Shown here: positions 3,193-25,586 of the stretch, one piece after another
Position numbering within the stretch: position 1 is the stretch's first letter
Layout: every line of letters starts with the position of its first letter
Source: a virus
Length of the DNA stretch: 26,455 bases
Reading direction: 5' to 3' (one strand)
Virus record (IMG/VR): IMGVR_UViG_3300007541_000174
Location: 1-26,455 of that record
Notes under the pieces: generated by a model
The model's database searches: none
What the model saw: only the letters and a program-made list of their open reading frames with translations
Told to the model about the DNA's origin: nothing
Program-made: the position numbers and the translations under genes

Positions 3193-4380
3193 ATGGACAT
3201 CAGAGATCTTTTAAATAAGTTAGACACTATTTCCACTGAAGCAAAAGCGGAGAAAGTGCGTGAACCTTATACTGTAGATAAAGCAGTAAAGGACATTCAA
3301 GGCGTTGTGTTTGCTGAACCTAGCAAAGGCGACATTAAATACAGCAGTGCAAACATTAAGAAATTTACAGATAGCAAATCTGAAATAGCGTACAAAGTAC
3401 GTGAACTTGCTAGTCGTATTAAAAACAACGACGAATTATCCTTATATCTAGCAGACCTAGCAGGAAGAATTACAGATCCTAGTCCTAGACAAGACGAAAA
3501 AGATCCTATTACAAACAAACACGTTGCTTTAATCAAACAAGCACTGGTTAAACATAATGAAATGGATAAGCCAGTTGATCCTGATTCCCAAGTTCCTTTT
3601 GATGATAACGGCGACGAAGATGAATTTGAATCAGCAGATGTACAAGAAGGTCCGATTGCTAATAATGTAGCAAGAGCGGCAAAAATTGGTGCTACAAGAG
3701 CGGCACAACTTGGCAAAGACACCGTTACTGGTATTAGAAGAATGGCTGGTAGATTAGGCCAAACAGATCAGATTAATAAAATGGTTCAAGGATTAAACAA
3801 ACTCGGAACTGGTTCTGTTTCGGGTATTGGTGCAAAAGGTTTAGAAACATTTGTTGAACCGCTTAAAAAGATTTTATCTAATCCAACACTTTCTGCGGCA
3901 TTTATGCAGTTGGTTAAAAAAGCAGAAGCAATGGAAAAGAATCAATCACAGGTTGGTCCACTAGGTGCTGAAGCAGGTGCTGAAGCAGGTGCTGAATCAT
4001 TTGTTCCTGAAAGCGATTTAAAAAAAAATTCTGAACAAGTAGAAGAAACTTGGTTTCAGGATATGATCGATGTTACCTTCCACGGTGACGAATTTTATGA
4101 AAACTTTGGTTGGGTTGGCTATGACGAAGAAGGTATTTCTGAAGGGGAATATCAAGGTCGCACAGTACAACTGAACAAACCAATGCGTGGCGATGTTAAG
4201 AAATTTAAAGTATATGTTAAGAATCCAAAAGGTAACGTGGTTAAGGTCAACTTCGGTGATCCGGACATGAAGATTAAAGCATATAATCCTGAAAGACGTA
4301 GAAGTTTCCGTGCTAGACACAACTGCGATAATCCAGGACCGAAAACAAAAGCACGTTATTGGTCATGTAGAAAATGGTAA
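3193..4380 (+). CDS. Head-associated-like protein with Cys-rich C-terminal tag
   Basis: The 395-residue product starts after a strong AAGGAG (3181-3185 region). Layout: an N-terminal leader MDIRDLLNKLDTIS resembling that of the gene at 9587; a charged helical region to ~130; an acidic linker (DDNGDEDEFE, ~138-146); a basic helical stretch (~155-250) rich in Ala, Gly and Lys; a GAEAGAEAGAE repeat (~258-268); and a C-terminal domain (~300-395) with KKFKVYVKNPKGNVVKVNFGD then a tag FRARHNC...RYWSCRKW holding two Cys. I recognise this tag as recurring at the ends of phage virion-related proteins, but cannot name a function. Probably a scaffold/core or packaged head protein, from context and composition; not proven. 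Confidence 0.7.
   Translation: MDIRDLLNKLDTISTEAKAEKVREPYTVDKAVKDIQGVVFAEPSKGDIKYSSANIKKFTDSKSEIAYKVRELASRIKNNDELSLYLADLAGRITDPSPRQDEKDPITNKHVALIKQALVKHNEMDKPVDPDSQVPFDDNGDEDEFESADVQEGPIANNVARAAKIGATRAAQLGKDTVTGIRRMAGRLGQTDQINKMVQGLNKLGTGSVSGIGAKGLETFVEPLKKILSNPTLSAAFMQLVKKAEAMEKNQSQVGPLGAEAGAEAGAESFVPESDLKKNSEQVEETWFQDMIDVTFHGDEFYENFGWVGYDEEGISEGEYQGRTVQLNKPMRGDVKKFKVYVKNPKGNVVKVNFGDPDMKIKAYNPERRRSFRARHNCDNPGPKTKARYWSCRKW
3964..3996 (+). repeat. In-gene 12-bp tandem repeat
   Basis: GGTGCTGAAGCA occurs at 3964-3975 and 3976-3987 and as a 9-base partial copy at 3988-3996. It encodes Gly-Ala-Glu-Ala units, a flexible acidic linker before the C-terminal domain. Copy number could vary between relatives without shifting the frame. 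Confidence 0.9.
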
Positions 4381-4387
4381 ATGAATC

Positions 4388-4741
4388 ATGTTATTGCAAG
4401 AACTCTTTAGTAAAGAAGAAAAACGAGCAGATGTCGGTTTAGTTGATGACGTTATATTTTTCATTGACCATGATGATGACTTGCATAAAGAACACTTTCT
4501 TCCAATAGTAGACAAACTCAAAAGCATAGCAAAAGAAGATAAAGACGAAGTATCTGAAATTGCTCCATATTTCACGAATATGGTTGACAAGGGTTGTGAA
4601 ATATACTATAACAAGTTTAAAGTACAAGGAAGAATGGAAGATATTTTCACAAAGGAATTCAAAAACCAAATCAAAGAAAAACTGGCAAAGAAACATCTGC
4701 CATATATCGTTGATGGGCATTACGACCCGAAGGAGGCGTAA
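4388..4741 (+). CDS. Hypothetical protein with CTS-like leader, 117 aa
   Basis: Not recognised as a family. The leader MLLQELFSKEEK has the same flavour (Met, hydrophobics, Glu-Leu/Phe) as neighbouring genes. The body is acidic at first (DDVIFFIDHDDDLHKEHF) and then mainly helical and lysine-rich (FKNQIKEKLAKKHLP). No clear Shine-Dalgarno is visible, but it begins seven bases after the upstream stop and its TAA shares a base with the next ATG (TAATG at 4739-4743), so translation is probably coupled. Probable member of the head-associated set. Confidence 0.65.
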   Translation: MLLQELFSKEEKRADVGLVDDVIFFIDHDDDLHKEHFLPIVDKLKSIAKEDKDEVSEIAPYFTNMVDKGCEIYYNKFKVQGRMEDIFTKEFKNQIKEKLAKKHLPYIVDGHYDPKEA

Positions 4742-5994
4742 TGAAATTATTTGAGTTTATTGCAGAAGCACCCAACAAGACCGCGGTGATTGCTTGGGGT
4801 AGAATGAATCCTCCCACTATTGGTCATCAGCAAGTGGTTGATACTGTTAACAACACAGCAAAAAAATTAGGTGCTGATCCTATTCTGTTTTTAACAAAAA
4901 CACAAAATCCAAAAAAGGATCCTTTAAACTTTAGCGAAAAGTTTCATTTCGCTAGTAATATGTTTAACATTCCAATAGATAAAAATGCTAATACCAAAAC
5001 ATTAATTCAAGCATTTCAAGAATTACAGTCAAATGGTTATGAAAATGTTGTATTGGTTGCTGGTAGTGATCGTATTCCCGAATATCAAAAACTCTTAGAT
5101 ACCTATAATAATAAACCTGACAAAAAAGGTATTGTGCCTTTTGCTTTTAAAAATATTAAAGTTGTTAGCAGTGGTGATAGAGACCCTGATGCTGAAGGTG
5201 TTAGTGGTATGAGTGCAAGTAAACTAAGACAACTTGCGGTTGATGGAAACTTTGATGCATTTAAATCAGGAGTTCCCGGTGACGAAACACTTGCAAAACA
5301 AATGTATGCAAGGGTACGAAGTGCCATGGGAATACAGGAAGAAGGCATTGCTGAAAATCCTCGAGGACCTCAACAGTTTAACAAAAAATTAGATCATAAT
5401 CAAATTAGTCAACTAATCGACGACTTTATTGATAAACTAAAACCGTTGTTGGCTCCTATTATTCCGGTGTTTTCAAAGACACATAACATTATTAAAGATA
5501 CAATAAAACAATATGTTGATCAAAATCCTATGATGGCAAAAATGGGTATCAGATATGCAAACGGTAATAATCCAAATTGGCTTGTAAGAAAAATTATCGC
5601 CAATGGTATTCCTGCTGAACATAAACCAACGTTGGATAAAGTTATGGCCCTTTGGAAGGGACTTCCAAATCAAGTACGCCATGAGGTTGAAGTCAATCCT
5701 ACAAAGTTTTTAGAGTCAGCATCAAATGAAATGTTTGGTTTTGCTACAAAAAGACCAAAGCCTGTTACTATAAAAAAGAAACCTAAAAAAGATGATTATG
5801 AAGACAGCCTAGGTCAACGTGTTCAGGATAGACTGAAACAAATTAGAAAAGACCAAGGAACTGTTAAAGAAGAAGGTGTTGGTATTGTAACAAAACAAAA
5901 TGCCACAAAGGATGTTCCTGTTGGTGGTGAATACATGAATTTAAAAAAATTACATTTAGGAAAAAAGCCTAAAAATTTAATGAAGAATCGATAA
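4741..5994 (+). CDS. Nucleotidyltransferase with capsid-targeting-like leader
   Basis: Residues ~13-170 form a cytidylyltransferase/NMN-adenylyltransferase-type fold: GRMNPPTIGH at 20-29 is the family's nucleotide-binding HxGH signature (TIGH), and SGMSASKLR at 155-163 corresponds to the later (I/V)SxTxxR-type phosphate-binding motif. Such enzymes join a nucleotide to a phosphorylated small molecule; the substrate is unknown. The first ten residues, MKLFEFIAEA, closely match the T4 internal-protein leader MKTYQEFIAEA, including the Ile-Ala-Glu site cut by the head protease gp21. Residues ~200-340 are an unrecognised helical domain and the end holds a basic GVGIVTKQNATKD-type tag. Start and stop codons overlap neighbours on both sides. 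The enzymatic call is firm; capsid packaging is inference. Confidence 0.85.
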   Translation: MKLFEFIAEAPNKTAVIAWGRMNPPTIGHQQVVDTVNNTAKKLGADPILFLTKTQNPKKDPLNFSEKFHFASNMFNIPIDKNANTKTLIQAFQELQSNGYENVVLVAGSDRIPEYQKLLDTYNNKPDKKGIVPFAFKNIKVVSSGDRDPDAEGVSGMSASKLRQLAVDGNFDAFKSGVPGDETLAKQMYARVRSAMGIQEEGIAENPRGPQQFNKKLDHNQISQLIDDFIDKLKPLLAPIIPVFSKTHNIIKDTIKQYVDQNPMMAKMGIRYANGNNPNWLVRKIIANGIPAEHKPTLDKVMALWKGLPNQVRHEVEVNPTKFLESASNEMFGFATKRPKPVTIKKKPKKDDYEDSLGQRVQDRLKQIRKDQGTVKEEGVGIVTKQNATKDVPVGGEYMNLKKLHLGKKPKNLMKNR

Positions 5995-6209
5995 TGGATA
6001 TTAATGATTTAAAAGTATTGGCTGGTATTACTAACACCTTTGGTGGACAACAAGAATACTCAATAGAAAATATGAGCCATACTGCGGCGGAACTTAAGAA
6101 AAAAGAAAAAGAACTGGGTGTTAAGCCTGGCGATGCTGAATGGTTTAAGTTGTGGTTTAGCAGACCATACATGACAGGCCCTGTGCAATTTAGAGGACGC
6201 AAAAAGTAA
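5994..6209 (+). CDS. Small hypothetical protein, 71 aa
   Basis: Starts on the last base of the upstream stop (TAATG) and ends sharing a base with the next ATG, so it is embedded in a coupled gene string. The leader MDINDLKVLAGI resembles those of the 3193 and 9587 genes. The C-terminal half (KEKELGVKPGDAEWFKLWFS then a basic FRGRKK end) looks like a portable tag with a conserved Trp-Phe-x-Leu-Trp-Phe core, of the type found at the ends of other phage proteins; here it makes up half the gene. No catalytic motif. Probably head-associated like its neighbours. Confidence 0.65.
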   Translation: MDINDLKVLAGITNTFGGQQEYSIENMSHTAAELKKKEKELGVKPGDAEWFKLWFSRPYMTGPVQFRGRKK

Positions 6210-7231
6210 TGGGAACACCTAAAATATATTTGGACATGGACGGGGTACTTGCAGACTTCTTTTCGGAGTATGCTAAGATGGCTGGAGTTAAATCCGGACA
6301 GTACAGAGAAATTCCAAAAGACAAAGTTGAAGCAACACTAGATGCTATGGTTGGCACAGACTTCTTTGCACGTCTACCTGTGTTTCCAAGTGTTCCTGCA
6401 CTATTAAAATTAGTGTTAAGTTATACCGATCATTACAATATTTGCTCAAGTCCGTTACGTGGCGATTTTGCAAATTCAGAAAAATATAAAAGAGTATGGA
6501 TCAAAGATCATTTAAATCCACAACCACAGGATATTATTATAACCGCTAACAAGTCTAAATATGCAAAACAAGCAGATGGTACTCCTAATGTTCTTATAGA
6601 TGACAGAGGCATTAACATCAGCGGTTGGATTGGTGCGGGAGGTATTGGAGTTAAGTATCAAGCAGACGAAGATAGTTTAAGTATTGTTAAACAAGCATTG
6701 GATAAAGCATTTAAGAAAGAAGACACAGAAGAATCCTGGATAATTGATTATGAAAAAGGATTGGACGAAGTTATTAAAAAATATGCAGACGAAGGATCGT
6801 TGTTAGCCAACCCCAAGAACACTTATGTTGTTAGAACCGATTCGCCATATGATTATATTAGATTAGGAACCCATTTAGGAAATCCAGCGGATGTGGATCC
6901 AGATGATTTTAATCCAAGTGTAGGATCTCCCGATGTTCCACTGGTATTTTACGGTGGAGAAAAAGAGAAAGAAATGGCATACAAATATCTTAAAAGATTG
7001 GGTTACAAAATACAACCTGGTGATGGATATACTGATATGCACTATGATGCTCAACAGGATGAAAACTTTGCTGATGGTAAAAATCCAGGACGCAAAGGTT
7101 TAGCAAAGCGTAGTGGTGTGGATTGCAAACAACCTGTGAGCAAACTGCGTAAAATAGCGAAGAATTCAAGCGGTGAAAAACAACGTATGGCTCATTGGTG
7201 TGCCAACATGAAAAGCGGTAGGAATAAATAG
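6209..7231 (+). CDS. HAD-family phosphatase (deoxyribonucleotidase-like) with tag domain
   Basis: Residues 1-170 carry a HAD hydrolase: motif I DMDGVLADF (9-17, nucleophile Asp9 and Asp11), motif II Ser in CSSPL (79-83), motif III Lys in NKSKYA (~114-119) and motif IV LIDDRG (129-134). The DxDGVLADF form is typical of 5'(3')-deoxyribonucleotidase-like and 5'-nucleotidase-like members, which remove phosphate from nucleotides; the exact substrate is unknown. Residues ~180-285 are a second unrecognised domain, and the C-terminus (GRKGLAKRSGVDCKQPVSKL ... EKQRMAHWCANMK) is a basic tag I associate with assorted phage proteins. Unlike its neighbours it lacks a clear targeting leader. Overlaps the previous gene by one base. 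Confidence 0.8.
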   Translation: MGTPKIYLDMDGVLADFFSEYAKMAGVKSGQYREIPKDKVEATLDAMVGTDFFARLPVFPSVPALLKLVLSYTDHYNICSSPLRGDFANSEKYKRVWIKDHLNPQPQDIIITANKSKYAKQADGTPNVLIDDRGINISGWIGAGGIGVKYQADEDSLSIVKQALDKAFKKEDTEESWIIDYEKGLDEVIKKYADEGSLLANPKNTYVVRTDSPYDYIRLGTHLGNPADVDPDDFNPSVGSPDVPLVFYGGEKEKEMAYKYLKRLGYKIQPGDGYTDMHYDAQQDENFADGKNPGRKGLAKRSGVDCKQPVSKLRKIAKNSSGEKQRMAHWCANMKSGRNK

Positions 7232-7235
7232 AATT

Positions 7236-8297
7236 ATGCGTATTACAGAATTAGATATATTTGCTCCACATACAGCCTATATTAGAACTGCTCCGGGTGT
7301 ATATTTTAAAGCCGACTGGAGACAATCAGAAAAATTAACAGGCGACGATGCCGCATCTTTTGTTAAAATAGAACCTTTATCACCAGAAGTTGTTAAATCA
7401 ATGGGGTTAGATGCCAAATTAAATGATAAGTCTGCCACAAGATATCGAAATAGAGAACTTGCTCGAGGTGGTCCAATTGGTGCTAGTGGTCCTTTCGCAG
7501 ATAGAGAAATTACGCTGGTAGATTTAACAGATGAACCTTCAAAACGCTTTGGGGCACCACAACTTCCCGCAGGTGTTATTGCAAAACTATACAAACATAT
7601 AGAGAAGGCAGAAAAAACTTCTGAAGCAAAAGAACAAAAGCCAATCAAGGCACGTGATCCTAACTGGCGTGATATGGAAGCATTGAGAAGGAGCGGTGCA
7701 AGTGGATCGCATGGCGATAAAACTAAAATCATTCCACGCAAAGAAAAACATAAAAACATTCCTATGGAAGACAAAGACACAGAAGATTTTGTTACAATGA
7801 ATGTTCCGTTGCTAATACGTGTTTTAGAATATGCTCGTGAAGATGCAGAAACAGATATTGATCTACATAATATAATTGAAAAAGCGGTTGAACTAGGACA
7901 GGGCGAACCTTTAACAATGAAGGACTACGATAGACTGGTACAAAAAGACTTACCTGATACACAAGCAGAAGCAAAAGATCCTTGTTGGAAGGGTTATAAA
8001 CAAATTGGTATGAAAAAGAAAGGTGGCAAACAAGTCCCTAACTGTGTACCAGAAAGAAAAACTATTTTTAGTGAATTAGAAAGTTTAAACGAAATTGCAT
8101 CCGCGGGTGCTACAAGTGCAGGTAGCATTGCTACCGTGGTTAATCCACACGTTGCCATCGGCGATAAAAATGCACGTAAACGTTATGGACAAAAGGGAGA
8201 AAACCCAAATCCACCAAAAGCGAAACCACAAAAACCAAGCGACAATGCACTGGACATGAAAGGTGTTTCTGTCTTTGGAGGAACGATAAGTAGATAG
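7236..8297 (+). CDS. Modular tag-mosaic protein, 353 aa
   Basis: No catalytic domain is visible. Instead the protein strings together segments that read like portable phage modules: leader MRITELDIFAPHTAYI; a basic piece with ARDPNWRDMEALRRSGASG; a helical piece NVPLLIRVLEYAREDAETD ... LTMKDYDRLV (~190-240); a two-Cys piece AKDPCWKGYKQIGMKKKGGK followed by VPNC; a possible head-protease site Ser-Leu-Asn-Glu; and a Gly/Ala/Ser-rich end starting SAGATSAGSIATVVNPH. Each resembles tags I would expect on several unrelated phage proteins, so it may be a structural or packaged adaptor. An AATAAATA at 7223-7230 lies just upstream, but is too close to the ATG for an ordinary leader. Confidence 0.65.
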   Translation: MRITELDIFAPHTAYIRTAPGVYFKADWRQSEKLTGDDAASFVKIEPLSPEVVKSMGLDAKLNDKSATRYRNRELARGGPIGASGPFADREITLVDLTDEPSKRFGAPQLPAGVIAKLYKHIEKAEKTSEAKEQKPIKARDPNWRDMEALRRSGASGSHGDKTKIIPRKEKHKNIPMEDKDTEDFVTMNVPLLIRVLEYAREDAETDIDLHNIIEKAVELGQGEPLTMKDYDRLVQKDLPDTQAEAKDPCWKGYKQIGMKKKGGKQVPNCVPERKTIFSELESLNEIASAGATSAGSIATVVNPHVAIGDKNARKRYGQKGENPNPPKAKPQKPSDNALDMKGVSVFGGTISR

Positions 8298-8299
8298 TC

Positions 8300-9127
8300 A
8301 TGAGAGCCGTAGAATTTATAAAAGAAGATAGACAGCAATTAAACGAATTTGCTTTTGTACCATTTGCGATAGCCGCTCTAGTAAGAGCCGCTGGTCCTAT
8401 GGTGATTAAACAGTTGGCCGGCAAAGGTGTAAAAGAAGTAGCAAAAAAAATGGCGGCTGAACAACTAAAAAAACAAGCAATAAAAAAGGCGGCGAGTTCT
8501 GGATTTCAACAGGCGGCTAAATCAACAGGCGGCAAAACAATAGCAAAAGGTATTGTTAAAAAAGGTGCTGAAAAAGCAGGTAAACTTGCAATCGGTGCAG
8601 GCGAAGCAATTCTTAGAAATCCAGGAAAAAGTTTTTTAGCATATGCTGGATGGAAAGCCTGGAACAGTGTGGACGAAATTAAACAATGGCTAGGTGCTAA
8701 ATTTGATATGGAGCAAGGAACCATTGCTAGTATTGCTGAAACAATTTGGGATTATAAAATTCATGCGGCAGTAGTTGCGGCAGTGGCTTGGGGCGGATAC
8801 AAGTTTTATCAATGGTTTGGAAATAGAGATGAAGATCAAATTACCAACGATGTTGTTAGAATGTCAGGCGTTAAAGGACAAGTAGATGGTGGTATAGATG
8901 TAGGTGAAATGAACAATGATAAATGGTTAGCACTTCTAGTTAGTGGTGCTGTTGTTGGTGGACTAGTTGGAAAATACTGGCCTGAAATTAAAAAGAAAAT
9001 TGCGGCCATGAAAGATGGTACAATGGATTGGGTTAAAGATACGTTGGGTATAGGTGATGACGATGCAACAGGAGCACAACAAGGTGGAAGACCTGATGGT
9101 GCAAATGATCCAATACCAGGAGCATAG
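8300..9127 (+). CDS. Membrane-active-looking protein with capsid-targeting-like leader
   Basis: The leader MRAVEFIKEDRQQLNEF resembles T4 capsid-targeting sequences and holds two candidate gp21-type sites (Ile-Lys-Glu and Leu-Asn-Glu). After it come a hydrophobic segment (FAFVPFAIAALVRAAGPMVI), a long Lys/Ala amphipathic region (~45-100), two further hydrophobic segments (AAVVAAVAWGGYKFYQWFG at ~153-171 and WLALLVSGAVVGGLVGKYW at ~213-231), and an acidic tail. This pattern fits a protein that inserts into or disrupts membranes. If packaged in the head it could act in DNA ejection; alternatively it may be a membrane anchor for head assembly. Both are inferences; no family was recognised. Confidence 0.7.
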   Translation: MRAVEFIKEDRQQLNEFAFVPFAIAALVRAAGPMVIKQLAGKGVKEVAKKMAAEQLKKQAIKKAASSGFQQAAKSTGGKTIAKGIVKKGAEKAGKLAIGAGEAILRNPGKSFLAYAGWKAWNSVDEIKQWLGAKFDMEQGTIASIAETIWDYKIHAAVVAAVAWGGYKFYQWFGNRDEDQITNDVVRMSGVKGQVDGGIDVGEMNNDKWLALLVSGAVVGGLVGKYWPEIKKKIAAMKDGTMDWVKDTLGIGDDDATGAQQGGRPDGANDPIPGA

Positions 9128-9135
9128 GAGAATAT

Positions 9136-9585
9136 ATGATGGAAAGAGATGAAATATTAGATAAGATTTTTGAAACAGACTATGATGCACCCGCTAATAG
9201 TTATGAAGCGGAAATGGTTAATAACCAAGTGGCGTTTATCAAGTATGCGGTTGACGAAATTGATGAGCACGTTAAGTCTGGTGGTATATTCCCTGAATGG
9301 TTTCAAAACAAATTAAGTGGTGTTCATGAAACAATCAAAATGCTACACGCATACATGGAAGGCGAAAGACAGCAACAAGAACGACAATTAAAGTTAAAAT
9401 CTATAATGAGTTCTGAAGATTCCTACCTTGAAACACTGCAAGACAAGTTACAAAAGATGACTGATTATCATGCAAAGAAAAAAGCACTACAAGATATTCA
9501 AATGGATCCTAACACAGATAAAGATCCAGAACTAAAGAAAGAGTTGATTAAAAGATTACATCGTTTAGAAAAAACAGGAAAATAA
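9136..9585 (+). CDS. Helical coiled-coil-like protein, 149 aa
   Basis: TAGGAG at 9125-9130 supports a start at ATG 9136 (5-base gap) or the adjacent in-frame ATG 9139 (8-base gap); they differ by one residue. The product is almost wholly helical. A module around residues 30-75 (FIKYAVDEIDEHVKSGG, then FPEWFQNKLSGVHETIKML) looks like a small phage domain, and residues ~75-149 are a charged coiled coil rich in Lys, Glu and Gln. No catalytic or membrane motif. Its place between two presumed head-associated genes suggests a core or packaged-protein role. Confidence 0.65.
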   Translation: MMERDEILDKIFETDYDAPANSYEAEMVNNQVAFIKYAVDEIDEHVKSGGIFPEWFQNKLSGVHETIKMLHAYMEGERQQQERQLKLKSIMSSEDSYLETLQDKLQKMTDYHAKKKALQDIQMDPNTDKDPELKKELIKRLHRLEKTGK

Positions 9586-9586
9586 T

Positions 9587-10330
9587 ATGTCTGATCTGCA
9601 CAACATACTCAACAAATTTAACAGCCTAGGAATAGTTAACAAAGGATTAACAGTTGACGGTCCAATAGGTGCTCCTAAGAAACAAGACAGCACAGAAGTA
9701 AGTCCGTCATCTCATGCAAAACAAGTTAATGAAAGTGTTGGAAAGAAATTCATTCCAGGAGTTAGTGATGTTAGTGCAAACGATTTCGCCGCATTAGCAG
9801 GAATTAAAAGACAATCAACAGGTACTATGTACGCTGAACAACCTAAAAGACAACCACAACAGCAATCCACAGCAACTATGCAATCACAATCAACTTCAAA
9901 TGCTGATTGGAATAAAGTAATGAACAGATTAGATTCAATGGAAGAAAAATTAAACAAAATGTTTGAATCATTAAATCCTGCTCCGTGGAAAAAATCTTTA
10001 AATGAAGATGTTGAAGTTCAAGAAGGAGACTTAATAATTAAAAGACCAGCATTTAATCATGCTATGCAATCTGCAATGGATGATCTACTTTGGAAAACAA
10101 CTAAAAATCCTGAAATGATTCCATTGGTACAGAAGTTATATAAACTAGCCACTGGCAAGGATGTTGAGTATGATTCTGATAAGGATAGTTTTACAATTAA
10201 AGCAAAGCCAAAAGAATTAAGTCCGGCGGAAAAAATTATAGCAAAGACAAAAAAAGAGTTAAACACAGAAGATACTCTTAAATCAGAGTTTGCTTCTTTT
10301 CTAAAAGAGTTAGAAAACTTTAAAAAATGA
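9587..10330 (+). CDS. Hypothetical low-complexity protein, 247 aa
   Basis: AGGA at 9576-9579 sits seven bases before the ATG. The leader MSDLHNILNKFNSLG parallels MDIRDLLNKLDTIS of the 3193 gene. Residues ~85-115 are Gln/Ser/Thr-rich low complexity, followed by a short coiled coil (MNRLDSMEEKLNKMFESL) and a Ser-Leu-Asn-Glu that could be a head-protease site. The C-terminal 100 residues are Lys/Glu-rich and helical and contain FNHAMQSAMDDLLWKTTKN, a compact domain I do not recognise. Its stop overlaps the next start (ATGA at 10327-10330). Probably a scaffold or internal head protein by analogy and context. Confidence 0.65.
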   Translation: MSDLHNILNKFNSLGIVNKGLTVDGPIGAPKKQDSTEVSPSSHAKQVNESVGKKFIPGVSDVSANDFAALAGIKRQSTGTMYAEQPKRQPQQQSTATMQSQSTSNADWNKVMNRLDSMEEKLNKMFESLNPAPWKKSLNEDVEVQEGDLIIKRPAFNHAMQSAMDDLLWKTTKNPEMIPLVQKLYKLATGKDVEYDSDKDSFTIKAKPKELSPAEKIIAKTKKELNTEDTLKSEFASFLKELENFKK

Positions 10331-10560
10331 GAGCAAAAGAGTTCGTAGATTACTTCTATGGTCTTGATCCGGAACATTTGTCCTATGGATATAAGATCGG
10401 TGATGTGTACGGAAAGAAAAATCTAAAAGTACCACACGCAAAACTGCATAGAAAGAAAAAAGTAGAGGAAAAGTGGAGTGAGAAGTACAAACGATCAATC
10501 AACTGTAACAATCCAAAAGGATTCTCACAACGTGCTCACTGCCAAGGAAGAAAAAAGTAG
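10327..10560 (+). CDS. Small basic protein with CTS-like leader and Cys tag, 77 aa
   Basis: The protein is almost only a leader plus a tag: MRAKEFVDYFYG at the start, then a Lys/Arg-rich stretch (VPHAKLHRKKKVEEKWSEKY), then KRSINCNNPKGFSQRAHCQG and RKK with two Cys about ten residues apart. The tag has the look of a small metal- or DNA-binding motif that recurs on other phage proteins. High basic charge would suit a DNA-bound internal head protein. It overlaps the previous stop by four bases and the likely start of the glycosyltransferase by 29. Confidence 0.7.
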   Translation: MRAKEFVDYFYGLDPEHLSYGYKIGDVYGKKNLKVPHAKLHRKKKVEEKWSEKYKRSINCNNPKGFSQRAHCQGRKK

Positions 10561-12865: not shown

Positions 12866-13147
12866 TTGGATTCCATAAAACGTTTTTGGACTGAAAGTTA
12901 TCATTCTGATAAAATAGCATTTGCTTGTGAACTTATCAGTTTCGTATTCACTGTTGGTGCGAGCCTAACACTTGCACTAACAGCGAACAATCCTAATATG
13001 GCTGTTGTATATCCTGGATTTTTTATAGGATCCCTTACAGCCGTTTATGCTTATTATAGACGCAGAATACCGTGGCCAATGATGCTAACGACTTATTTTG
13101 CTATTGTTAATGTTTTTGGTTTTGGGAGAGCAGTCGGATGGTGGTAA
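12866..13147 (+). CDS. Small membrane protein, first of a tandem paralogous pair
   Basis: The likely start is TTG 12866, just after the dsbA stop. The 93 residues contain a charged N-terminal segment (IKRFWTESYHSDKIAF) and three hydrophobic segments: LISFVFTVGASLTLALTA, VVYPGFFIGSLTAVYAYY and MMLTTYFAIVNVFGFG. A basic RRRIPWP lies between the second and third, which should place it on the cytoplasmic side. The end FGFGRAVGWW is nearly identical to that of the next gene. Function unknown; a small inner-membrane protein altering host envelope or transport is possible. No known transporter signature was recognised. Confidence 0.75.
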   Translation: MDSIKRFWTESYHSDKIAFACELISFVFTVGASLTLALTANNPNMAVVYPGFFIGSLTAVYAYYRRRIPWPMMLTTYFAIVNVFGFGRAVGWW

Positions 13148-13434
13148 ATCTTTGGCAAAAAGTAAAGGACTTTTGGATTAGAAGTTATACTTCAGATCGC
13201 AGAGCATTTTATTATGAAACAGTGGCAAGTATTTGTGTGTTTACATCAATGACTTGGATTTCAATGACAGCACAACATCCACCGATGCATTTGATTTATC
13301 CTGTAAGTTTTACAGGTGCTGTTTTTAGTATCGCGGCATTTTTACGCAGGGGTGCAGGATGGCCTTTGGTTATGACTACCTATTTTGCTTTCCTACACGT
13401 ATTTGGTTTTGGCAGAGCAATGGGTTGGTGGTAA
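13138..13434 (+). CDS. Small membrane protein, second of a tandem paralogous pair
   Basis: The 98 residues align end to end with the previous gene, roughly 40 percent identical by eye: FWxxSYxSDxxAF at the start, P-x-M-x-x-x-Y-P in the middle, RR...WP and TTYFA, and the shared terminal FGFGRA-x-GWW. Three hydrophobic segments occupy the same positions. The ATG at 13138 overlaps the end of the first gene by 10 bases, so the two are probably made in a fixed ratio. This is a gene duplication that has diverged, and the products may form a heterodimer in the inner membrane. Confidence 0.75.
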   Translation: MVVNLWQKVKDFWIRSYTSDRRAFYYETVASICVFTSMTWISMTAQHPPMHLIYPVSFTGAVFSIAAFLRRGAGWPLVMTTYFAFLHVFGFGRAMGWW

Positions 13435-17722: not shown

Positions 17723-19267
17723 TTGAATACTAATCTAACACAAGAACAAAAGGATTACGCAATATACCTTCCGGCATTGAGTGGCTTCTATGCTACCTTT
17801 ATTGGTAAACAACGCAGAGAAGAGTATGTAGATAAAAGTCGTATTCCTTTTCCGAACAACGACATGGAAGGTCTTAATTGGCTTAATCCACAAAAGGGTA
17901 TATTCCAATATCATTGGACTTTGTATTCTGCAGGACACGCCGAACTTGACATTAACAAGGACGCACCTAAAGAATTAATGATCCGTGAACGTGATCGCGA
18001 AAATAGTTGGCTACTTGGTGACTCAGGTGGTTTCCAGATTGGTAAGGGTGTTTGGGAAGGTGATTGGAAAGATCCTAATTGTCCTAAGGCTAAAAAGAAA
18101 CGTGAGCAGGTTCTTGCGTGGATGGATGCTTATATGGACTATGGTATGATCCTTGATATTCCGGCTTGGGTGGCACGTTCTCCGGCAGGTGCAAAAGCAA
18201 CTGGAATTAGCACATATCAAGAAGCCGTTAATGCTACACGCATTAACAACGATTACTTTATGAAGAATCGTACAGGTGCTTGTAAGTTCTTAAACGTATT
18301 GCAAGGTGAAAACCATGCAGACGCTGAAGATTGGTATCAGCAGATGAAAGACTACTGTGATCCTAAGAAATATCCAAATGATCATTTTAACGGATGGTCA
18401 ATGGGTGGTCAGAATATGTGTGATGTACACTTGGTACTAAAACGCTTGATAGCATTACGTTTTGATGGATTGCTTGAAAAAGGCAAACACGACTTTATGC
18501 ACTTCTTGGGTACAAGTAAACTAGAGTGGGCAACGTTGCTTACCGACATTCAAAGAGCAGTTCGCAAATATCACAATGAAAACTTTACAATTACATTTGA
18601 CTGTGCTTCACCGTTCCTAGCAACAGCAAATGGTCAGATCTATTGTGAACTTGAAACAGAAGATCGTAAGAAGTGGGTTTATAGAATGGTACCTAGCATT
18701 GACAACAAAGCACTTGCAACTGATACTACACCCTTTGGTCAAGCATTTGTTCGTGAAGGGAAACATGGAAGTTTTAAAGATTCGCCAATTACAGCAAATC
18801 TACAAGCCAAAGATATTTGCATCTATGCACCAGGCGACCTAAATAAAATAGGTAAAGAAGGCAGAACAAGTTGGGATAGTTTTTCATATGCGATCCAAAT
18901 GGGTCATAATGTATGGAGTCACATTAATGCAGTACAAGAAGCAAACAGACAATATGATACGGGACGAGTTCCTGCAATGCTTGTCGAAGAACGCTTTGAC
19001 AGGATATTTTTTAGAGATGTTGTGGAGGCAATATTCGCAACTGACAACCGCGACACAGCGAACGCGGTGGTAGAAGAGTTTTCGAGATTCTGGATGTCAA
19101 TTATTGGCACTAGAGGAGCAACAGGTAAAAAAACTGTGAATGCTAGTACACAGTTTAATGCTCTTTTTGAGGTGGATGCACCAATATTAAAAGAAGACGA
19201 AGACGTTCATGAAGATGGATGTTTTAGTGAAGATGAAGAAAATAAACTAGAAGAACTGGAGGCATAA
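17723..19267 (+). CDS. dpdA: TGT-superfamily base-exchange enzyme, DpdA-like
   Basis: The TTG start is supported by GGAGG at 17711-17715, seven bases upstream. The 514 residues contain the TIM-barrel signatures of tRNA-guanine transglycosylases: DSGGFQ (100-105), a base-recognition Asp in DIPAW (145-149), LQGE (193-196), Gly228-Gly229 in WSMGGQ, HFLGTS (260-265) and the catalytic-type Asp293 in FDCASP. The CxCxxC...H zinc site of tRNA TGTs is not seen after this point, and the protein has ~200 extra C-terminal residues. Loss of that zinc site and the larger size are features of DpdA enzymes, which swap guanine in DNA for a 7-deazaguanine. FolE and a QueD-like gene nearby support that. A tRNA substrate remains possible. 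Confidence 0.8.
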   Translation: MNTNLTQEQKDYAIYLPALSGFYATFIGKQRREEYVDKSRIPFPNNDMEGLNWLNPQKGIFQYHWTLYSAGHAELDINKDAPKELMIRERDRENSWLLGDSGGFQIGKGVWEGDWKDPNCPKAKKKREQVLAWMDAYMDYGMILDIPAWVARSPAGAKATGISTYQEAVNATRINNDYFMKNRTGACKFLNVLQGENHADAEDWYQQMKDYCDPKKYPNDHFNGWSMGGQNMCDVHLVLKRLIALRFDGLLEKGKHDFMHFLGTSKLEWATLLTDIQRAVRKYHNENFTITFDCASPFLATANGQIYCELETEDRKKWVYRMVPSIDNKALATDTTPFGQAFVREGKHGSFKDSPITANLQAKDICIYAPGDLNKIGKEGRTSWDSFSYAIQMGHNVWSHINAVQEANRQYDTGRVPAMLVEERFDRIFFRDVVEAIFATDNRDTANAVVEEFSRFWMSIIGTRGATGKKTVNASTQFNALFEVDAPILKEDEDVHEDGCFSEDEENKLEELEA

Positions 19268-21826: not shown

Positions 21827-22334
21827 AATATTTGATAACTTTGCACCAGAATGGTTATATCAAAGAAATCTCGTCGAAATGACAACAGGTGTTTTTCCTT
21901 GGTATTGGCCTAGTGGAGCATATAGTGATCATCCAGATGTTAGTGCATTTGGAAATGAAATATTTCACGGTGCTAGAGGACATAATGCATTACATCTTGC
22001 ACCTAGCCTAACGTATATCATGGATTATTGGTTTGATAAAAATAAAGATTGGTTTAAACTTGTTGAATTTGAAAGATGTAGAGCCAATTTATACACACCA
22101 GGACAAACGGTAGAAGAACATATAGATACTGATAGACAAAACAGATATAGTCTGTTATACTATGTAAATGATAGTGACGGCGGAACTACTATTGGTGGTG
22201 AAGTTGTTGAGCATAAGGCTAACAGAGCGGTATTGTTTAACAGCGATATCAAACATCAAGCAATAAAAAATACTAGTCCTGCTAGAATTAGTATTAATAT
22301 TATAATGCACGGAGAAGTAAATGAAAAAGTATGA
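21819..22334 (+). CDS. 2-oxoglutarate/Fe(II)-dependent oxygenase
   Basis: The 171-residue protein has the full iron site of the double-stranded beta-helix oxygenases: His101-x-Asp103 (EEHIDTD), distal His146 (SDIKHQAI) and a 2-oxoglutarate-binding Arg156 (SPARISINI). Such enzymes hydroxylate proteins, nucleic acids or small molecules. T4-like phages of marine bacteria often carry them with unknown targets; TET/JBP members oxidise bases in DNA. Here the gene overlaps the glycosyltransferase start-side by 8 bases and folE by 14 bases, so all three should be translated together. It could oxidise a base or a precursor to give a hydroxyl for glycosylation; a protein target such as a virion or host protein is the alternative. 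Confidence 0.85.
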   Translation: MIKIFDNFAPEWLYQRNLVEMTTGVFPWYWPSGAYSDHPDVSAFGNEIFHGARGHNALHLAPSLTYIMDYWFDKNKDWFKLVEFERCRANLYTPGQTVEEHIDTDRQNRYSLLYYVNDSDGGTTIGGEVVEHKANRAVLFNSDIKHQAIKNTSPARISINIIMHGEVNEKV

Positions 22335-23007
22335 AGAAGTAACACGCAGATTAAAGGACGCAAACAAGCGTTACTGGGCCGGCGACAATATCAGTGAATT
22401 CATTTATGTCGGCGAAAAATCAGAACTAATCAAAGAAGCAACAGAAAAGTTTGAAGGTGTGCTAGACGCACTTATTATTGATAGAGAAAACGATCCTAAC
22501 AGTCACGGTACTGCTAGACGTCTTGCAAAAATGTATTACAACGAACTAATGCAAGGACGTTATGATCGTATTCCACCAGCAACTGCTTTCCCCAATGAAG
22601 GTGAAAATGCATATACAGGTATGCTTGTTGTGCGAAGTGAACTTAAGAGTGTTTGTTCGCATCATCATCAACCGGTAACGGGTGTAGCATACATTGGTGT
22701 TATTCCTAATGGTAAAGTAATCGGACTTAGCAAATATACACGTATTGCACAGTGGTGTGCTAGACGTGGAACATTGCAGGAAGAACTTTGTAATGATATT
22801 GCACGTGAAATTGAAAAGGCTACAGATGCAAAACACTTAGGTGTTTATATTCAAGCAACACATGGTTGTTGTGAGAACAGAGGCATTATGGCACACAGCA
22901 GTCTTACACAAACAACCGTGCTAAAAGGTTCATTCAAGGATGATCCTGCTACTAAAAAAGAGTTTATGGACAATATTAAATTGCAACAAGAGTTTGCACC
23001 GAGATAA
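22321..23007 (+). CDS. folE: GTP cyclohydrolase I
   Basis: Converts GTP to dihydroneopterin triphosphate, the first step of both folate and 7-deazaguanine (queuosine) synthesis. The 228 residues match the FolE pattern: zinc ligands Cys112 and His115 in CSHHHQPVTG and Cys183 in ATHGCC, the PNSHGTARRLAKMY block, IGLSKYTRIAQW (134-145) and ENRGIMAHSS at the end. GGAG lies just before the ATG, which is inside the oxygenase gene (14-base overlap). Phage folE can support thymidylate synthesis through folate, or deazaguanine in DNA. The DpdA-like gene and QueD-like gene in the same stretch favour the second. QueE and QueC are not in the window. Confidence 0.93.
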   Translation: MKKYEEVTRRLKDANKRYWAGDNISEFIYVGEKSELIKEATEKFEGVLDALIIDRENDPNSHGTARRLAKMYYNELMQGRYDRIPPATAFPNEGENAYTGMLVVRSELKSVCSHHHQPVTGVAYIGVIPNGKVIGLSKYTRIAQWCARRGTLQEELCNDIAREIEKATDAKHLGVYIQATHGCCENRGIMAHSSLTQTTVLKGSFKDDPATKKEFMDNIKLQQEFAPR

Positions 23008-24617: not shown

Positions 24618-25173
24618 AAAAGGCGAAGTACAACAACAGCAACCGAACAACATAGACAGCAATGGTGTTTATCTTTTAATGGATCAAATTACCTATGCTA
24701 GTTGTAAGGACGCAATTAAATGGATAATGAATCATAATCTAAGTGATAATCCATTACCAAAATAAACACTTATAATTAATTCACCAGGCGGCGATGTACA
24801 CGCGGCGTTTGCATTAATTGACACAATGAAAGCAAGTAGTATTCCTATTAAAACAGTAGGATTAGGATTAATTGCAAGTTGTGGATTCTTAATTTTTATT
24901 GCAGGTGAAAAAGGTAAACGTATCCTTACACCTAACACAAGCATTTTATCACATCAGTACACTTGGGGTAGTAGAGGCAAGGAACACGAACTGTATGCTA
25001 GAGTAAAGGAATTCGAACTCAGCACAGAACGTATGATTAATCATTACAAAAAATGTTTAGGAATGACAGAAGCAAAAATTAAAGAAATACTTCTTCCGCC
25101 ACAGGACGTTTGGTTAAGTGCTGAAGAAGCAAAGAAACTTAAAATTTGTGATAAGATTGAGGAATTGTACTAA
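24610..25173 (+). pseudogene. clpP: ClpP-like serine protease with in-frame TAA
   Basis: The frame starts at ATG 24610, overlapping the upstream stop, and codes 51 residues (MAKKGEVQQQQPNN ... NPLPK) before TAA at 24763-24765. The same frame then continues without another stop to 25173 and reads as the rest of a ClpP protease: INSPGGDVHAAFALID, catalytic-type Ser in GLIASCGFLIFIAG, His in ILSHQYTWGS and the end DVWLSAEEAKKLKICDKI. Joined, it is ~187 residues, a normal ClpP length. Either the gene is broken by one base change, the TAA is a sequence error, or the stop is read through or followed by restart at ATG 24826, which has no evident Shine-Dalgarno. It would degrade proteins with a Clp ATPase partner or mature virion proteins. 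Confidence 0.85.
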
Positions 25174-25586
25174 TGCGTGAAGACCTGATGGTACAGCAAC
25201 AGGTAAAAAATGTATGGCAACACATGGTTGGTGTTATTTGTCTGAATCAAGTTAATAGACGTCAAACCAAACCATTGCTTACAAAATTTTTCAAACGCTG
25301 GCCAACAGCAAATAAACTATTGCGTTCAGCAACTATTCCTATGCTGGAAGAGTTTTTAGCACCTTTGGGTATGCAAAAGGTAAGAGCAAAACGCATTTAT
25401 AAGATGAGCATACAGTTTGAAAATTGGGACGGAGAGGATGCTACACGACTTTATGGTATCGGTAAGTATGGTTCTGACAGTTATAAAATATTTTATAAAA
25501 ACGAAATTCCAACAGATGTTCAGGACAAAGAACTAAAAAGATATATCAAGGAAGAACTATGTGGGAATATTGGTGCAAAGCAATAG
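25173..25586 (+). CDS. MBD4-like HhH-GPD DNA glycosylase
   Basis: The 137 residues resemble the catalytic domain of MBD4, a mismatch glycosylase that removes T or U (and hydroxymethyl-U) opposite G. MVGVICLNQVNRRQTKPLL (18-36) matches its first helices, FLAPLGMQKVRAKRI (61-75) the next, and LYGIGKYGSDSYKIF (93-107) the helix-hairpin-helix and nearly its exact wording in MBD4. The catalytic Asp is probably Asp118 in VQDKELKRY. No iron-sulphur Cys cluster and no methyl-CpG domain are present. The ATG overlaps the ClpP-like stop (TAATG). It may repair deaminated or modified bases, or cut host DNA; which base is unknown. Confidence 0.8.
   Translation: MREDLMVQQQVKNVWQHMVGVICLNQVNRRQTKPLLTKFFKRWPTANKLLRSATIPMLEEFLAPLGMQKVRAKRIYKMSIQFENWDGEDATRLYGIGKYGSDSYKIFYKNEIPTDVQDKELKRYIKEELCGNIGAKQ

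Follow-up and report, generated by a model that had tools for sequence, protein, structure and literature searches.

A bank of phage genes with candidate capsid-targeting leaders and exchangeable modules in an uncultured T4-superfamily phage

The window, that is, the whole stretch of DNA analysed, is a 26,455-base fragment of an IMG/VR record (G000). It encodes a T4-type (gp43-type) family B DNA polymerase, whose matches span approximately its full length at 43-50% identity. The best polymerase matches in the phage collection were large phages, namely Phosso (50%), Atu_ph07 (46%), and 121Q (44%), and no near-identical or close phage relative of the window was found in the collection searched. 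Within the fragment, neither capsid/head genes nor a gp21-family (S77) prohead protease were found. The source is an uncultured T4-superfamily phage carrying a T4-type replication gene, and its habitat is probably marine.

Several other ORFs of the window were noted. Two small tandem paralogues at 12866-13147 and 13138-13434, hydrophobic by eye, match the same loci. Positions 22321-23007 encode GTP cyclohydrolase I (Pfam E = 1e-40), a possible sign of a 7-deazaguanine type pathway; its neighbour, a 514-aa ORF at 17723-19267, had no Pfam match. The ORF at 24826-25173 resembles a Clp-protease fragment (E = 3e-18); the match is confined to the second half of this family, and the first half is possibly upstream or missing. 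The ORF at 25173-25586 encodes a HhH-GPD type repair protein.

Ten consecutive ORFs span positions 3193-10560 and are named here by their start positions. The sequence-only reading had counted nine consecutive genes; the block itself is real. Most of its products are small and basic, and the C-termini of the bank proteins are more basic than those of other genes (p = 0.001). The features are listed below, with a slash marking a predicted cut or junction.

3193-4380, plus strand: bank gene; N-terminus MDIRDLLNKLDTISTEA, not a T4-type leader (profile p = 0.15)
From about 4144, plus strand: C-terminal EYQGR...RARHNC module of 3193, after I-S-E/G (PHROG 7595, E = 9e-12)
4388-4741, plus strand: bank gene with leader MLLQELF (p = 0.028, and leaders of orthologues)
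4741-4767, plus strand: capsid-targeting-type leader MKLFEFIAE, predicted cut before Ala10 (p = 0.001; disordered in the AF2 model)
4741-5994, plus strand: predicted NadD/NMNAT-like nucleotidyltransferase, core at about residues 13-200, C-terminus basic (PHROG 3041 cytidyltransferase, E = 1e-51)
From about 5872, plus strand: C-terminal GVGIVTKQN module of 4741, after V-K-E
5994-6209, plus strand: small bank protein with N-terminal LAGI motif (MDINDLKVLAGI) at 6009-6029, found in 24 related loci
6209-7231, plus strand: predicted NT5C-like HAD nucleotidase without leader (PHROG 2643, E = 8e-22)
From 7064, plus strand: C-terminal NFADGK module of 6209, after Q-D-E, a poor site
7236-8297, plus strand: bank protein with start MRITE/L, leader not significant
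From 7983, plus strand: CWKGY module of 7236
From 8094, plus strand: C-terminal capsid-arm-like ASAGATSAG module of 7236, after L-N-E (capsid junction match, E = 4e-4)
8300-9127, plus strand: Ala-rich protein with leader MRAVEFIKE/D (p = 0.027; T4-type regex match)
9136-9585, plus strand: bank protein M(M)ERDEILDKIFE/T, weak leader only (p = 0.125; L-F-E-T conserved in L002)
9587-10330, plus strand: bank protein with internal scaffold-like FAALAGI at 9785-9805, no T4-type leader (orthologues in L002 and L014)
10327-10560, plus strand: short bank protein with leader MRAKEFV (p = 0.049; leader swapped in orthologues)
From 10471, plus strand: C-terminal WSxKYKRSINC module of 10327, after V-E-E

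It had been proposed from the sequence that the genes of this block share short leaders resembling that of the T4 internal proteins, and the N-termini quoted for this proposal are all present at the gene starts given. We collected relatives of the 4741 nucleotidyltransferase and obtained 44 distinct N-termini, mostly of the form M-K/R/L-x-F/L-x-x-I/L-x-E-A with one optional extra residue. A leader profile was then trained on 41 nucleotidyltransferase leaders of other clades, the window, L002, and L014 being excluded, and its p values were computed against internal windows. On this profile, where the T4 leader scores 10.1, MKLFEFIAEA of 4741, which the sequence-only reading had described as a close match to the T4 leader, was the strongest of the matches in the bank. 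The genes 8300 and 10327, which had been called close variants of it, fared differently: 8300 matched, whereas 10327 was marginal. Among the leaders described as looser, MLLQELF (4388) also matched; those of 3193, 5994, 7236, and 9587 did not, and MDINDL of 5994 turned out to be part of a different conserved motif, DLKxLAGI. The profile was likewise not significant for 9136 and for the HAD gene 6209, for which no clear leader had been claimed and which carries none here, so that six of the ten bank genes gave no significant match. Nevertheless, the block scored above the other genes of the window (Mann-Whitney p = 0.011). A T4-like leader of about 10 residues with L/I-x-E is accordingly found in 4741 and 8300, marginally in 4388 and 10327, and not in the other six; nine similar leaders was an overstatement. 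A plain L/I-x-E within 14 residues was rejected as a test, its background being approximately 10% at internal positions of proteins of the Methylophilales phage Melnitz. In the AF2 model of 4741, residues 1-10 (mean pLDDT of about 50) lie outside the confident fold, most of the core being above 90.

In relatives, the leader was conserved or exchanged separately from the protein body. A few relatives of the nucleotidyltransferase begin directly at the enzyme (L005, L032, L037, L065, L071, L077, and L080), and the L002 enzyme, which is 69% identical to 4741, starts with MLLKELLEA in place of MKLFEFIAE. Orthologues of 10327 have MRAKEFV, MKIREVT(D), MKICEVT(D), or MRYKEFRMVEA ahead of the same YGLDP body, and those of 4388 start with MLLKELF (L002 and L014), MRIDEFT, MRASEFLNEA (L057), or MVRAHQFISES (L003); these orthologue leaders strengthen the case for 4388 and 10327. 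Conversely, two ORFs of L002 and L020 that show no other relationship share all nine residues of MRAKDFIIE. No homologue of 8300 was found among the related loci. The leader is thus a detachable element, as judged from these comparisons: missing in some relatives, exchanged by orthologues, and common to unrelated bodies.

The presence of a nucleotidyltransferase in the set was borne out. Foldseek matched 4741 to NadD (E = 1.7e-6, TM of about 0.55, 14% identity) and also to the PPAT and FAD synthetase folds, and GRxNPxTxGH is invariant in 40 sequences, the SxxxxR columns being invariant as well. The Pfam score for CTP_transf_like was 14.2 bits, below the cut-off of 21, and when PDB sequences were searched with a profile of the enzyme, no relative was convincing; the identity of 4741 therefore rests on the fold search. 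By predicted fold and (T/H)xGH motif, it is a NadD/NMNAT-like nucleotidyltransferase with putative activity on NaMN/NMN. In the ORF of 6209, the HAD motifs DMDGV, SSPLRG, and LIDDR were seen, at a Pfam NT5C score of 21.2 bits, below the cut-off of 24.8. Its relatives stand behind a leader, fused behind a leader-bearing protein in several cases, or fused to the nucleotidyltransferase; some have no leader. In Melnitz, similar starts precede three further proteins, namely one of the RimK-type ATP-grasp kind, a zeta-toxin-like P-loop kinase, and one with DUF6267. It was also observed that DUF6267 proteins with KWDGAPA (ligase-like KxDG by eye) adjoin the nucleotidyltransferase at many loci, e.g., L007:13272-14528 and L005:629-1849, the leader being very frequent on them.

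Subsequently, the distribution of the leader over other genes was examined. In loci around the enzyme, the profile matched 5.5% of N-terminal ATGs versus 0.4% of internal ATGs. In the capsid-gene regions of related phages, it matched 53 of 80 scaffold starts (MLDALKTLFENDVVSE and variants), 10 of 96 prohead protease starts, and 1 of 626 other genes, compared with 114 of 1185 other starts near the enzyme; since orthologues were counted and are not independent, p values are optimistic. A first comparison of enzyme regions with capsid regions had shown only a 1.5-fold difference, because the capsid-region matches are the scaffold and protease themselves. A prohead protease is annotated in Melnitz and S-CREM2, and PF03420 was found in four contigs with related banks. 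One of these, the 196-kb contig G001, carries a bank resembling that of the window (L057) and has the PF03420 prohead protease, a scaffold, and a major capsid protein. By the counts above, the leader marks head-core proteins, i.e., scaffold and protease.

Bank genes share other motifs with scaffold and capsid proteins. In 64 distinct capsid-protein variants, [LI]-x-E is followed by a TAGATSAGNVATL-like stretch; by its position, without alignment, this site would correspond to the gp23 cleavage region. The module of 7236 reads LNE/IASAGATSAGSIAT. When the capsid junction was used as the query, the equivalent gene in G001's own bank was matched at 2e-7 in addition to 7236, and the reversed junction gave no match below 0.5. 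The 7236 module is similar to the predicted N-terminus of the major capsid protein after maturation. The scaffold C-terminus, located after an I/L-S-E site, is LTNIRKLAGI, and its LAGI motif also occurs in 5994, internally in 9587, and in relatives (25 forward matches versus 1 reversed). The bank genes were not recovered by BLAST with the entire C-terminal sequence of the scaffold; what they have in common with it is confined to the short LAGI motif. The likeness to scaffold and capsid may be due to mimicry, common origin, or convergence. As a separate observation, G006 (the contig of L062) has two major capsid protein matches on the minus strand (C1:48349-48474 and 47184-47342), which lie approximately 1 kb apart in different short ORFs with only about 55 residues between them in the query; an intron or intein may split this capsid gene.

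Published virion proteomes of cyanophages offered another line of evidence. In S-CREM2 virions purified on CsCl, 52 proteins were detected by mass spectrometry (PMC10665884). Among S-CREM2 genes not named structural, a T4-leader regex matched 6 of 28 virion-detected versus 7 of 167 undetected genes (p = 0.004; p = 0.06 over all genes), although some choices of the analysis (regex, thresholds, modules) followed inspection of the data. The leader profile applied by threshold did not separate the virion-detected genes (p = 0.14 to 0.56), whereas the regex did, and the support from S-CREM2 is therefore moderate. The regex-matching virion proteins are a cytidylyltransferase (MKNFSSFLTEA), a SAM hydrolase (MKDFDSFLEE), an APH-like kinase (KRFDAFLTEE), gp13, gp15, and gp136. 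We also noted that the Cas9-like virion protein gp12 (L094 / OR473000 7704-10313, minus strand) contains the leader-like RFASFMAEA at residues 18-26, 17 residues inside the annotated start. The S-CREM2 authors suggested that such enzymes may enter the cell but were unable to exclude contamination (PMC10665884), and a citidylyltransferase was detected in S-SM1 virions (PMC3037559). The published cyanophage virion work is not known to link the leader to packaging, and searches of a library with little subscription literature yielded no account of capsid-targeting leaders on marine enzymes of this kind.

The C-terminal parts of the bank proteins are found again in relatives, where they are joined to other bodies or stand by themselves after a leader, as in MKIREVTE/NFADGK (L056), MKSYQQWLNE/AEYQGR (L023), MLIREITE/GWTKKYKKS (L028), and MRIKEVITE/VASAGATSAG (L073). 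By eye, an L002 gene with a leader of its own (9078-9590) looked like the C-terminal half of 4741, but this idea was discarded (BLASTP E = 2.5), and the AF2 model of the EYQGR module was too poor for use (pLDDT 51). Upstream of NFADGK in unrelated contexts, P1 was E in 20 of 20 and P3 was I/L/V/M in 16 of 20 (p = 6e-8); upstream of EYQGR, the corresponding counts were 29 and 30 of 31. A site at the fitting offset was also seen for WSxKYKKS (5/5) and ASAGATS (5/6), and in the window such sites stand at junctions of 3193 (I-S-E), 4741 (V-K-E), 7236 (L-N-E), and 10327 (V-E-E). The modules thus often begin directly after [ILVM]-x-E, like T4 gp21 cut sites, and protease sites between modules are probable from these patterns. 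It is conceivable instead that the leaders are cut while the modules merely have conserved domain edges, the internal junctions being left uncleaved. Such edges would account for the additional acidic bias at P5-P7 upstream of EYQGR, for CWxGY (CWKGY) and GVNTT, where a site at one offset occurs in a minority of cases, and for the window junctions of the HAD protein (6209) and CWKGY, which have no [ILVM]-x-E site, but they do not readily explain why P1 and P3 are the sole conserved columns before NFADGK. Moreover, four phages have the EYQGR domain as a stand-alone gene, namely siphovirus Kolga, podoviruses HTVC111P and HTVC026P, and Roseobacter phage CRP-901; in them the gene starts with MA[KT]Y[QK]G, precisely where the cut is predicted, and they are assumed from their phage type to have no gp21-type protease. 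Uncleaved domain edges are a serious possibility, although the less likely one. In small pelagiphages and roseophages (L268, L269, L270, and L271), the basic EYQGR module forms a gene by itself, so that its spread extends beyond the T4 superfamily.

Two other explanations concern the bank as a whole. Rather than form a payload, its products could help to shape the head as accessory parts of the scaffold or core, as T4 gp67, gp68, and IPIII do, the enzymes riding along or being degraded. The resemblance of the leader to scaffold and protease N-termini, the LAGI and capsid-arm motifs common to scaffold and capsid, and the small, basic nature of most products fit this idea. A conserved NadD-like active-site core, however, is needless for head shape, as are the ATP-grasp, kinase, and nucleotidase domains that relatives carry under similar leaders, and leader-bearing enzymes are found in mature S-CREM2 virions; we consider this explanation unlikely. 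Still less probable, in our view, is that the enzymes act in the cytosol as ordinary auxiliary metabolic proteins, their N-terminal likeness being a common amphipathic start or translation signal with no packaging role. That some relatives of both enzymes lack the leader and that L/I-x-E is common by chance would agree with this, but a signal of that kind should not be restricted to one in 626 other capsid-region genes while present on scaffold and protease, nor be associated, as a regex, with virion detection in S-CREM2.

Taken together, these findings favour the reading, to which we assign a probability of roughly 0.68, that the block is a bank of internal proteins of the T4 type that also takes in enzymes and uses several assembly-derived tags, with processing by the prohead protease and injection with the DNA. 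The proteins would reach the prohead core through an N-terminal leader in several genes and through a scaffold-like LAGI or capsid-arm-like module in others. Cutting after L/I/V-x-E, a gp21-type prohead protease would then remove the leaders and possibly also separate the basic C-terminal modules. In mature form the proteins, the NadD-like nucleotidyltransferase among them, would remain with the DNA and be delivered to the cell upon infection. The analysis shows the motifs themselves, that they vary independently of the bodies, and that scaffold, protease, and capsid proteins have them too, and leader-bearing homologues were detected in published work on virions of another phage; packaging, cleavage, and injection in the phage of the window we infer. 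The proposal of capsid targeting made from the sequence alone thus holds in part: the same leader on scaffold and protease starts of relatives and the leader-bearing enzymes in S-CREM2 virions make targeting of the 4741 nucleotidyltransferase well supported and that of 8300, 4388, and 10327 probable, while it does not extend through a leader to all nine genes, the HAD protein being leaderless.

A wider view is tentative: marine T4-superfamily phages may use interchangeable loading tags common to both ends of the scaffold (LAGI at its C-terminus) and to the arm of the capsid protein, polyprotein cargo cut at module junctions by the prohead protease, and injected nucleotide-metabolism enzymes, possibly against NAD- or nucleotide-depleting defences, of which a role against NAD-depleting defences is only a guess. 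The new aspects would be the extension of the T4 internal-protein principle to other enzymes, exchangeable modules, and further tags. If this is true, virion cargo becomes predictable from sequence in an abundant phage group, and a leader start or module content makes a gene a candidate for delivery at infection. It would also provide a mechanism for the unexplained virion enzymes of cyanophages (cytidylyltransferase, SAM hydrolase, and kinase) and name candidate loading tags besides the N-terminal leader.

An enzyme payload is found in T4 itself, namely Alt. The capsid-targeting sequence of T4 is a sufficient leader of 10 residues, of which residues 4 and 7 mainly serve targeting and residues 8 and 10 processing, and gp21 cuts after L/I-X-E (PMC9026906). 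Like IPI-IPIII and Alt, the bank has ten-residue leaders, hydrophobic near positions 4 and 7, with an L/I-x-E cut motif, conserved while the bodies differ and shared by several genes. It differs from them in that its cargo includes a predicted NadD-like nucleotidyltransferase, orthologues exchange several classes of leader, LAGI and capsid-arm-like tags are present as well, sites between modules are probable, and many genes are leaderless. The virion cytidylyltransferases S-CREM2 ORF154 and S-SM1 T4-GC190 belong to a homologous enzyme family, and the S-CREM2 protein has a T4-type leader, but these phages are cyanophages of another clade. In SPN3US and phiKZ, ejection proteins are packaged in the head and the prohead protease cuts after a short Glu-ending motif (PMC9026906). 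These distant giant phages resemble the bank in head-packaged, ejected proteins cut after a Glu-ending motif, features that are predicted for the bank.
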